NCBI RefSeq assembly: GCF_035474595.1 | Contig: NZ_DATIND010000103.1 | Location: 1-37,579 of the forward strand | Source of the DNA: Longimicrobium sp. | GTDB lineage: Bacteria > Gemmatimonadota > Gemmatimonadetes > Longimicrobiales > Longimicrobiaceae | Length of the DNA: 37,579 nucleotides | Reading direction: 5' to 3' | Shown here: in pieces, positions 16,582 to 24,138 of the stretch | Numbering within the stretch: position 1 is the first letter of the stretch | Layout of the letters: each line of letters begins with the position of its first letter | Notes under the pieces: generated by a model | Told to the model about the DNA's origin: nothing | The model's database searches: none | The model's input: only the letters and a program-made list of their open reading frames with translations | Program-made: the position numbers and the translations under genes

Positions 16582-17976
16582 GTGGTCATCGACGCCTTCC
16601 ACCTCCCCGGCCTCCCGCACGTCCCCACGACCACCTGGTCGTACGGGCGGGGGAAGGGCGCATTCGAGATCCGCGTGCCGCGGCTTACGCCCGCGCTGCT
16701 GCGCCAGCAGGTGCGCGCGCTGGGCGAGGCGCGCGAGCGGGCGCTGGCCGGGCGGCCGGTGGCGGAGATCGTCGCCGTGATCGACCGGGTGGCCGCGCGG
16801 CTGCTGGACCCCGCGGACGAGCTGCGGCGGACGGCGGAGGGCGCGCTCCCGGCCATCACCCACTACTCGCCCGCGATGGTGGGCCGGGTGCTGGACCGGA
16901 TGGCGGCGGACTGGCGCGCGGCCCCGCTCCGCGAGCTGCTGCGCTCCGAGCTGGGCGATCCGCGCGTGCTGGACGGCTTCCGCCCGGCGCCGCGCGGCCA
17001 CGGCAGGCGGATGGCGATGGGGCCGCGCCTGGCCGCCCACGTCTTCAGCGGCAACGTGCCGGGCGTGGCGGTCACCTCCATCGTCCGCTCGCTGCTGGTG
17101 AAGGCGGCCACGCTGGGGAAGACGGCCGTCGGCGAGCCCCTTCTCCCCGCCCTCTTCGCCCGCGCCGTCGCGGAGGAGGACGCGGAGCTGGGCGCCTGCA
17201 TCGCCGTCACCTACTGGCACGGCGGCGACGAGGAGCTGGAGCGCGCCGCGCTGGAGCACGCCGACGCGGTGATCGTCTACGGCGGCCGCGACGCGGTGAC
17301 GGCCATCCGCGCGAAAGCGCCGGCCGAGGCGCGGTTCCTGGCGTACGGTCCCAGGCTCTCCTTCGGCATCGTCGCCCGGGGCCGGCTCACGGCGGAGCAC
17401 GCGGGGGACGTGGCGCGCGCGGCGGCGCTGGACGCATCGACGTTCGACCAGCAGGGATGCGTCTCTCCGCACGTCTTCTACGCGGAAGAAGGGGGAGATG
17501 TGAGCCCGCGGGCTTGGGCGGCGATGCTGGCGCGGGAGATGGAATCCGTCGAGCGCGACCTGCCGCGCGGCACCCTGTCGCCCAGCGAGGCATCGGCCAT
17601 CCGCCAGCTCCGCGGCCACGCCGAGTTCGCGGCCGGCCTCGATCTCCACGCGTCGGCCGAGGGGACGGCGTGGACGGTGGTCTACGATCCCGAGCCGGCG
17701 TTCGAGGCCTCGTGCCTGAACCGCGTCGTCCGCGTGAAGCCCGTCGCCGCGCTGGAGGAGATCCCCCCGCTCGTAGCCGCCTACGCGGAGGTGCTGCAAA
17801 CCGTCGGCGTCGCCGCGTCAGCCGAGGAGGCGGGGGATCTCGCCGCCGCGCTCGGGCGGCTGGGGGCGAGCCGGATCGCGCCGCTCGGGAAGATGGCGTG
17901 GCCGCCGCCCTGGTGGCATCACGACGGGCGCCCGCCGCTGCGCTCGCTCGTCCGCTGGTGCGACTGGGAGGAGTGA
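16582..17976 (+). CDS. luxC: LuxC-type acyl-CoA/acyl-protein reductase
   Basis: A 464-residue protein of the LuxC family, which reduces an activated fatty acyl group to the aldehyde with NADPH through a cysteine thioester. The segment FDQQGCVSPHVFY matches the conserved active-site region, and Cys293 is the likely nucleophile. HVFSGNVPGVAVTSIVRSLL resembles the cofactor-binding HxxxGNVP-type segment of the family. Start is GTG at 16582, directly after a tandem octamer array; an internal start cannot be excluded. A LuxE-type synthetase is encoded 3.5 kb downstream on the same strand, but there is no luxA, luxB or luxD in the window. Fatty aldehyde formation for lipids or signalling is more likely than light. 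Confidence 0.82.
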   Translation: MVIDAFHLPGLPHVPTTTWSYGRGKGAFEIRVPRLTPALLRQQVRALGEARERALAGRPVAEIVAVIDRVAARLLDPADELRRTAEGALPAITHYSPAMVGRVLDRMAADWRAAPLRELLRSELGDPRVLDGFRPAPRGHGRRMAMGPRLAAHVFSGNVPGVAVTSIVRSLLVKAATLGKTAVGEPLLPALFARAVAEEDAELGACIAVTYWHGGDEELERAALEHADAVIVYGGRDAVTAIRAKAPAEARFLAYGPRLSFGIVARGRLTAEHAGDVARAAALDASTFDQQGCVSPHVFYAEEGGDVSPRAWAAMLAREMESVERDLPRGTLSPSEASAIRQLRGHAEFAAGLDLHASAEGTAWTVVYDPEPAFEASCLNRVVRVKPVAALEEIPPLVAAYAEVLQTVGVAASAEEAGDLAAALGRLGASRIAPLGKMAWPPPWWHHDGRPPLRSLVRWCDWEE

Positions 17977-21156: not shown

Positions 21157-21385
21157 GACGTCATCCTGAGGCCGACCACACCGCAACTCACGTTCGCGCT
21201 GAGACTTGCAGGCCGAAGGATCGATCCATAGCCGGCCTCGCACGTCAGCGGGAAGTGAGGCACGGATACCGGCTTGGAGGATCGATCGTGCAGTCCGGAA
21301 GCGCACGTGCGACCTCGCGCGATCCTTCGGCCTGCAATCGCTCTTGCAGAGGCAAGGACGGTGTGGCCGGCCTCAGGATGACGTC
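21157..21385. repeat. Inverted pair of R2 elements
   Basis: A forward copy begins GACGTCATCCTGAGG at 21157 and includes TGCAGGCCGAAGGATC and a GCACGT segment. The mirrored copy ends GGCCTCAGGATGACGTC at 21385. The arms are about 90-95 bases with diverged centres, mirroring the pair at 15370-15598. No gene is seen in 21092-21454. Confidence 0.75.
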
Positions 21386-21454
21386 ATCTCCATGCGTCTG
21401 TTATGCACAGCTGATTTCAGATCTGGTACGAGGCCTGTCCGCACGGAGATCGAC

Positions 21455-22573
21455 TTGGCCACCACCGACGCGAGCGAGCTGAAGCAGCGCCTGCTGTCCG
21501 TTATCGCCCGGGGCGCGCACGCGCCGCTGGACGAGGCGGAGTTCGACGCGCTCGCCCTCGGCGTGTTCGCGCACCAGTACGCGTGCAACGCCCCGTACCG
21601 CGCCTTCTGCGACCGCCGCGGCGCCACGCCCGAGACGGTGCGCGGCTGGGCCGAGGTCCCCGCCGTCCCCACCGACGCGTTCAAGGCGACCGCGCTCGTC
21701 TGCGGCGACCCGTCCTCCGCCGCGGCGACCTTCCGCACCAGCGGCACCACGCAGGGAAGCGAGCGCCGCGGCACGCACATCGTCCCCGATCTCGCCCTGT
21801 ACGACGCGGCCCTGCGGGCGGGCTTCTCCGCGCACCTGCTGCCCGACGGCGCGCGTCCGCGCATCCTCTCGCTCGTCCCCTCCCCCGCCGATCTGCCGGA
21901 TTCGTCGCTCTCGCACATGATCGGCGAGGTGATGCGCGATTTCGCGGCGCCGGGGAGCGATGGGTTCGTCACCCCCGACGGCGGCATCGCGGGCGACCGC
22001 CTGCGCGACGCCCTCCGCGCCGCCGAGGCCGACGGCGCACCCGTCTGCATCCCCGGGACGGCGTTCGCGTTCGTGCACTGGCTCGACGCGCTCGCGGCCG
22101 CCGGCGATCAGTTCCATCTCCCCGAAGGCTCGCGGGTTATGGACACCGGCGGCTTCAAGGGCCGCTCGCGCGAGGTCACCCGCGAGGAGCTGTACGCCGC
22201 GATCGAGGACCGGCTCGGCATCGCCCCCGCGTGGTGCGTGAACGAGTACGGGATGACTGAGATGAGCTCGCAGTTCTACGACGGCGCCGCGGGAAGCGCC
22301 CTCGCGCCGTCCGGGCGCCTGCACGTCGGCCCGTCGTGGGTGCGCACGCAGGCGGCCGACCCCGAGACGCTGCGCCCGCTCCCGCACGGCGAGGTCGGCG
22401 TGCTGCGCCACTGGGACCTGGCAAACCTCAACTCGGTGATGGCGATCCAGACCGCGGACCTGGGCTTCACCACCCACGCCGGCTTCCGCGTCCTGGGCCG
22501 CGCGCGCGGTGCCGAGGCGCGCGGCTGCTCCATCGCCATGGACGAGCTCCTCTCCGCGATCCGCACGCGCTGA
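21455..22573 (+). CDS. luxE: LuxE-type acyl-protein synthetase
   Basis: A 372-residue ANL-like protein of the LuxE family, which activates a fatty acid as acyl-AMP and loads it onto a protein cysteine. FRTSGTTQGSERRG (residues 93-106) is the adenylate-forming P-loop. VCIPGTAFAFVHWLDAL, DTGGFKGRSREVTREELY and WCVNEYGMTEMSSQFYD follow in the order of LuxE proteins. TTG at 21455 is preferred because GGAG lies six bases upstream and the product matches the family length; the ATG at 21392 adds a short unlikely tail. The LuxC homologue is encoded at 16582 on the same strand. Together they could make fatty aldehyde; no luciferase genes are present. Confidence 0.82.
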   Translation: MATTDASELKQRLLSVIARGAHAPLDEAEFDALALGVFAHQYACNAPYRAFCDRRGATPETVRGWAEVPAVPTDAFKATALVCGDPSSAAATFRTSGTTQGSERRGTHIVPDLALYDAALRAGFSAHLLPDGARPRILSLVPSPADLPDSSLSHMIGEVMRDFAAPGSDGFVTPDGGIAGDRLRDALRAAEADGAPVCIPGTAFAFVHWLDALAAAGDQFHLPEGSRVMDTGGFKGRSREVTREELYAAIEDRLGIAPAWCVNEYGMTEMSSQFYDGAAGSALAPSGRLHVGPSWVRTQAADPETLRPLPHGEVGVLRHWDLANLNSVMAIQTADLGFTTHAGFRVLGRARGAEARGCSIAMDELLSAIRTR

Positions 22574-22854: not shown

Positions 22855-23940
22855 TCACCCCGCGAACGAGGTGCGCACGTTGCGGTCGCCCATCACGGCG
22901 CGGAAGGCCTGCACGGAATTGGCGCTGCTCTCGATGCGCCAGTCCGCCTCCTTGCGGGTGTTGAACCAGATGGCGCCGATCACGCTGTGGTGGCGGCGCA
23001 TGGCCTGGAACGCCTGCTCGATCCACCGCCCCTTGTCGTACCCGCGTGCCTCCTGCGTGGCGAACTCGCCGATGATGATGGGCTTGCCCGGAAAGCGGCG
23101 CTCCAGGTCGCCCAGCATGTTGTCGGCGTCGGCGTCGTCGAACACCTGGTCGAAGCCCTGCCACGCGCCGCCCCACACGCTGGGCCCGTTGTACCCGTGC
23201 GGCCCCAGGTAGTCGACCACGTCGTTCCCGGGATAGTAGTTGCCGTACCAGTTCCAGTGCCCCGGCCCCGTGGCCGCGTTGGTCAGCGGGTTCCCCACGT
23301 TCGGCGCGAACACCCACTTCACGTTGCGCGCGCCCTGCCGGCGGAAGATCTCCACGATGCGGCGGAAGGCGGCGCGGTACGCGGCCGGCGCGGCGGCGTC
23401 GCCGTTGGCGGCGGGCTGCCAGGCGTAGCTCCAGCGCCCGTTCATCTCCCACCCCGGCTCGATCAGCACCGTCCCCGCGCCGGCCAGCCCGCGCGCCATC
23501 GCGGCGATCTGGCGGTCCGCGCGGCCGGCGGCGATCGCGGCCAGGATCCCCCGGCCGGGGGCGCCGCTCCACTTCAGGTCCAGCGCCAGGTAGGGCGTGG
23601 AGCCCGCGCCGGAGACCTGGCGCACCAGCTGCCCCGCCCACCCGCCGCGCGAGTAGTCGCCGTCCAGCGTCTGGAAGAGCTTCACGAAGGCCGGGCGCTT
23701 GCCGGTCAGGCGCCCGAAGGCGTCGATCCCCTGCTCCACGCGGCCGGTCCGCGTGGCGGACTCGCCCAGGTAGGCGCCCACGTAGAACGGGCGGTCGAAG
23801 CCGGGCGCGGCGTACGTCGCCTCGCCACCCGCGGGCACGGTGGCGGCGCGCGCGGGGTGCGGGAGCGCGAGAACGGCGGTGGCGAGGGGAAGCGCGAACG
23901 CGAGAACGCGTCCGCTCCCACGGGGGGCGGAGATCGTCAT
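22855..23940 (-). CDS. Secreted glycoside hydrolase, GH26-like
   Basis: A 361-residue exported TIM-barrel glycosidase. A signal peptide ends near HPARA. The barrel carries two carboxylates at the expected places: LIEPGWEMNGRW (Glu165, acid/base) and IIIGEFATQE (Glu292, nucleophile), as in GH26 beta-mannanase-type enzymes. YSRGGWAGQLV, KWVFAPNVGNP and YLGPHGYNG are further barrel segments. ATG at 23940 has GAGGTG about five bases upstream. The 5' leader is a cyclic-di-GMP-I riboswitch whose closing helix can include that GAGGTG. Secretion plus c-di-GMP control suggests it acts on the cell's own or biofilm polysaccharide; the sugar specificity is not evident. Convergent with luxE. Confidence 0.85.
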   Translation of the reverse strand: MTISAPRGSGRVLAFALPLATAVLALPHPARAATVPAGGEATYAAPGFDRPFYVGAYLGESATRTGRVEQGIDAFGRLTGKRPAFVKLFQTLDGDYSRGGWAGQLVRQVSGAGSTPYLALDLKWSGAPGRGILAAIAAGRADRQIAAMARGLAGAGTVLIEPGWEMNGRWSYAWQPAANGDAAAPAAYRAAFRRIVEIFRRQGARNVKWVFAPNVGNPLTNAATGPGHWNWYGNYYPGNDVVDYLGPHGYNGPSVWGGAWQGFDQVFDDADADNMLGDLERRFPGKPIIIGEFATQEARGYDKGRWIEQAFQAMRRHHSVIGAIWFNTRKEADWRIESSANSVQAFRAVMGDRNVRTSFAG

Positions 23941-23944
23941 GGAT

Positions 23945-24047
23945 CACCTCTTCGGCGGCTCGACCGGCGTGGACGGGCGGAATGCCCGTCTTTAGCCTCG
24001 GAACTTTGCGTCCCCGCCTTTCGGCGGGTTTGCCTTTGTCGGAGGTG
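23945..24047 (-). ncRNA. Cyclic-di-GMP-I riboswitch (GEMM-I)
   Basis: Minus-strand leader of the GH26-like gene. The diagnostic order is present: ACAAAGGCAAACC, hairpin CCGCC-GAAA-GGCGG (GNRA tetraloop), GGGACGCAAAG, then CCGAGGCTAA, a second hairpin GACGGGC/GCCCGTC, and a receptor-like GCCGGTCGAGCCGCCGA. Aligned to the Vibrio Vc2 aptamer, the ligand-recognition position 20 is G, as in c-di-GMP binders, and not A as in cGAMP-binding variants. The 5' flank CACCTC (24042-24047) is complementary to the Shine-Dalgarno GAGGTG (23945-23950), so ligand-stabilised P1 would hide the ribosome-binding site: an inferred translational OFF switch. Confidence 0.9.
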
Positions 24048-24107
24048 CGCCCGGCTATCCTGAAGAGGTCCGGGCACACGTCGCGGGAAGGATCCCGCGC
24101 AACGCAC

Positions 24108-24138
24108 CAAATCTAATCAACACAATAGGTTAGGTCAA
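24108..24138 (-). promoter_or_regulatory. Promoter of the riboswitch-glycosidase transcript
   Basis: On the minus strand TTGACC (24133-24138), about 17 bases, TAGATTTG (24108-24115), in a short AT-rich island. This would give a leader of roughly 160 bases that contains the whole riboswitch. The -10 is shared with the transglycosylase promoter. Confidence 0.6.

Follow-up and report, generated by a model that had tools for sequence, protein, structure and literature searches.

In the 37,579-nucleotide stretch of DNA analyzed here (the window), from a soil bacterium of the Longimicrobium type (Longimicrobium sp.), a gene for a secreted glycoside hydrolase of family 26 (GH26) is preceded on the minus strand by an RNA element that is very probably a class-I c-di-GMP riboswitch working as a translational OFF switch, with an open state held by an upstream hairpin (P0), on an exported enzyme that probably trims matrix. 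An initial annotation of the locus had proposed a GEMM-I aptamer, a masked Shine-Dalgarno (SD) sequence and a GH26-like enzyme; the competing hairpin and the genus-wide regulon described below are additions to it. The order on the minus strand runs from the promoter (24138-24110) through P0 (24079-24045), the aptamer (24044-23950) and the SD (23950-23945) to the GH26 ATG at 23940:

24110..24138, minus strand: sigma-70-like promoter TTGACC-17-TAGATT (consensus match only: 9 of 12 matches, none in shuffles)
24045..24079, minus strand: upstream hairpin P0, GUGUGCCCGG / CCGGGCGCAC, 10 pairs (pairing and positional enrichment)
24042..24047, minus strand: anti-SD CACCUC, 5' strand of the P1 extension (complementarity and co-variation)
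23950..24044, minus strand: class-I c-di-GMP riboswitch aptamer, with P1 core, P2 with GAAA loop and P3 receptor (covariance models and contact bases)
23945..23950, minus strand: SD GAGGUG, 3' strand of the P1 extension (complementarity and co-variation)
22855..23940, minus strand: secreted GH26 glycoside hydrolase, 361 amino acids, Lic26A-like (Pfam and phmmer)

Aptamer and enzyme in the window

The full set of GEMM-I hallmarks is present on the minus strand: GGCAAACC, the GAAA loop, GGGACGCAAAG and the P3 receptor segment. The Rfam scan suggested in the initial annotation bore out the aptamer, as a single-family search of the genome matched the element to the full RF01051 model (1-87) at 71.2 bits (E = 1.3e-13), well above the curated cut-off of 35 bits. 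In what we take to be the Vc2 numbering, the contact bases form the canonical set of G20 (24034), A47 (24007) and C92 (23955). Judged by its sequence, the element is an ordinary c-di-GMP-I aptamer, standard for this known riboswitch class, and c-di-GMP is the expected ligand. One earlier detail was wrong: the aptamer does not end five bases before the SD. Its final bases abut or overlap the SD, and the SD in turn supplies the 3' strand of the P1 extension.

The GH26 assignment was also upheld. The Pfam GH26 model matches weakly (23.5 bits versus a cut-off of 20.2), and a phmmer search aligned Clostridium thermocellum Lic26A, a GH26 enzyme of solved structure, with residues 67-351 (E = 4.7e-37). 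Glu165 (PGWEMNG) and Glu292 (IIGEFAT) align with the glutamates of conserved Lic26A motifs and are probably catalytic, roles that we assume from general knowledge of the family. The N-terminus has, by eye, the form of a signal peptide. Elsewhere in the window, the plus strand carries a LuxC-like acyl-CoA reductase (16582-17973) and a LuxE-like acyl-protein synthetase (21206-22573) about 3 kb apart, with other genes between them, including one for an S13 peptidase.

Coupling of the Shine-Dalgarno sequence to P1 and P0

The outer part of P1 pairs CACCUC (24047-24042) with its exact complement GAGGUG (23950-23945), the SD, which lies four bases upstream of the GH26 start codon. This complementarity, noted in the initial annotation, is above chance. 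When the partners of the P1 extension were permuted among 33 elements with the SD in P1 (19 non-redundant groups), own partners paired with a group mean of -8.0 kcal/mol versus -6.2 +/- 0.47 kcal/mol for permuted ones, a value equalled in none of 5000 permutations. The groups of class A, defined by an SD in P1 and carrying G20 throughout save for one A20 GH26 element, gave -8.3 versus -6.4 on their own (p = 0.0004). Given that the groups share ancestry, this evidence is strong but not independent. The outer pairs of class A vary from CACCUC/GAGGUG in the window to GGCACC/GGUGCC, CACCC/GGGUG, ACUC/GAGU and others, and the same layout precedes GH26 genes outside the genus, with CACCU/AGGUG at L151 and GGCUCC/GGAGCU at L152. 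Because both sides of the P1 extension change jointly across relatives, the proposed SD-masking OFF switch is supported by co-variation as well as by anatomy. Most likely, the riboswitch shuts off GH26 translation by folding the SD into P1, a direction that we infer from anatomy. In computed unliganded ensembles of the window element, which ignore tertiary contacts, the SD was about 0.36 unpaired, that is, partly free, and an ON state was not clearly predicted.

The last three bases of P0 (CAC) double as the outer bases of P1, and transcription would be expected to start near 24103, upstream of both. Of 20 class A representatives, 18 have a stem of at least five Watson-Crick pairs ending just before or inside P1, versus 7.2 expected from shuffles, an enrichment that partly reflects descent, as the representatives are hand-chosen and paralogous; in the other classes there is no enrichment (8 of 28 versus 8.4 expected). 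For the window, with tertiary contacts and ligand omitted, the full-P0 fold is favored by about 9.5 kcal/mol over the extended-P1 fold, so that P1 would close only with ligand. These modeled energetics fit a default open state that is closed by ligand. Upstream regions of class A fold little better than shuffles (mean z only -1.0; class B, -0.9), and the case for P0 thus rests on position, not energy. P0 probably competes with P1 for CAC and keeps the unliganded mRNA open. We therefore propose the following sequence of events. Bound c-di-GMP would close P1 through CACCUC/GAGGUG and bury the SD, so that GH26 is not made; without ligand, the 10-pair P0 would hold CAC, leaving P1 open and the ribosome able to bind. 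The exported enzyme would then probably trim a self-made, beta-glucan-like matrix polysaccharide.

An aptamer for another nucleotide, either cGAMP or some other ligand bound by the c-di-GMP-I-GGC variant, might be suspected because RF03167 (c-di-GMP-I-GGC) ranked first by E-value in cmscan (65.2 bits, E = 2.2e-13; E = 9.1e-15 at the same 65.2 bits when searched singly in the genome), exceeding its cut-off of 59 bits, and because the same genome has cGAMP-type A20 aptamers elsewhere. However, the bit score favors RF01051 (71.2 versus 65.2), and the window element reads GCAAAG against GCGAAG in the RF03167 consensus, lacking the G at the A47 position. We take GGC to denote positions 20, 47 and 92, with the base at 47 presumably defining the family, as its name and consensus suggest; on the A47 base and the lower bit score we then reject membership in RF03167. 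With the canonical G20/A47/C92 set, the cmscan label is nominal. We likewise reject sensing of cGAMP, given the G at 24034, where GEMM-Ib elements have A20. In addition, the 13-14 readable GGDEF domains of the genome (G000) carry the usual, c-di-GMP-type Asp, with no Hypr Ser among them, and we consider a different ligand highly improbable. An ON switch, in which the P0 loop ACCUCUUC would mask the unliganded SD until ligand frees it, is scarcely better placed. That loop has an 8-base complementarity to GAAGAGGU, and ON-like GEMM-I elements occur elsewhere in the genus, where a distant SD is matched by the 5' side of P1 (p = 0.01 by permutation). Here, however, the SD sits within the ligand-stabilized P1, so that binding would mask the SD, not expose it. 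The best fold is also more stable than the loop-SD fold by about 9 kcal/mol, and the loop sequence is, by inspection, not kept in relatives. On these grounds we reject an ON switch through the P0 loop; an ON direction overall is very unlikely.

GEMM-I elements of the genus and the role of GH26

Across 10 Longimicrobium (Gemmatimonadota) genomes we found 70 GEMM-I elements, all with A47; at position 20, 41 of them carry G, 28 carry A and one carries C. The A20 elements, with the cGAMP-type base, comprise L119, L123 and L117 (G000:C64, C25) and 25 more. The single C occurs at L088 (G007:C15), and we know of no characterized member with this base. At two loci, L122 (G000:C48) and L091 (G003:C120), tandem GEMM-I pairs precede the same secreted-protein gene. 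Class A elements control genes for GH26 (10), M23 peptidases (8) and PAS-GGDEF diguanylate cyclases (5); for the cyclases, an OFF switch would amount to simple negative feedback. A GEMM-I element precedes 10 GH26 genes of the genus and is absent before two others (L020 and L028), and the combination recurs beyond the genus, in two further genera of its family and in a second family of the order. Given these sister genes with the same layout, the window riboswitch is a good but ordinary example of its class.

The opposite layout appears in a class of short GEMM-I-like aptamers (L118, L081, L093, L100 and similar), which have a GCGA loop and altered J1/2 (GCACC) and J2/3 (UCCGCAAAG) and precede lipoprotein-like genes. 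In this class the 5' side of P1 contains an anti-SD to a distant SD, for example CUCCUUC with GAAGGAG (L118, L081, L093), and own-SD pairing beats that with permuted SDs (p = 0.01). Ligand closing P1 would free the distant SD, and these elements are accordingly predicted from sequence to be ON switches. In a third class, with A20, terminator-like hairpins were seen by eye downstream in several loci.

Two GH26 paralogs lie beside polysaccharide synthesis genes: one (G000:C64) adjoins a GT2-PilZ cellulose-synthase-like gene and the other (G004:C127) adjoins Wzz, sugar-transferase and flippase genes. For the family, these riboswitch-bearing paralogs favor a role in the matrix. No recognizable polysaccharide cluster was found among the neighbors of the window gene, and biofilm exit through GH26 made when c-di-GMP falls is thus put forward as plausible only. 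The same lack of polysaccharide-synthesis neighbors would suit a functional OFF switch on an enzyme that serves nutrition, degrading beta-glucan from plants or fungi and not the matrix of the cell itself, and GH26 lichenases are commonly nutritional. Against this stand the paralogs with the same riboswitch beside synthesis genes, and we regard a nutritional role as a serious possibility, somewhat short of even. At L124 (6719-10679 of G000:C64) and at L151, GH26 is followed by the GT2-PilZ gene and both genes have a GEMM-I element of their own; the sensor of GH26 has A20 in G000 and G20 in the other genus (L151). A broader matrix-remodeling program of the Longimicrobiaceae, run through many GEMM-I RNAs with P0/P1 strand exchange setting the switch and with paralogous GH26 genes, each beside its own polysaccharide synthase, wired to different dinucleotides (G20 versus A20), is a speculative and rather unlikely extension, though no Hypr cGAMP synthase is visible.

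Relation to known systems

The closest solved relative of the window gene product is Lic26A (endoglucanase H, GH26) of C. thermocellum, for which we know of no riboswitch control. Our literature search found no paper that joins a c-di-GMP riboswitch, a glycoside hydrolase and translation. Class-I c-di-GMP riboswitches occur in 62 of the 121 sampled genomes of the phylum Gemmatimonadota, and the window element offers a compact, testable RNA switch from this little-studied phylum, one that would tie a biofilm signal to a matrix-type hydrolase. A single genus supplies natural OFF and predicted ON layouts, as well as G20 and A20 sensors, for comparison.

The nearest precedent is the Vc2 riboswitch of tfoY in Vibrio cholerae, where P1 governs a translational OFF switch (PMC9262584, PMC7371385); both share a GEMM-I aptamer, the proposed translational OFF direction and P1 as the switching element. 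Going by the title of Inuzuka 2018 (cited in PMC7371385), Vc2 masks a ribosome-binding site that is distant from the aptamer. Unlike Vc2, the SD itself forms a strand of P1 in the window element, and an upstream hairpin competes with P1. In Aeromonas hydrophila, chitinase genes have c-di-GMP GEMM-I riboswitches upstream (PMC6366702). These likewise precede a secreted glycoside hydrolase, but the enzyme family differs and no mechanism is described in that report. The GEMM-Ib (cGAMP) riboswitches of Geobacter share the same fold and have their counterpart in the A20 elements elsewhere in Longimicrobium, whereas the window element has G20.
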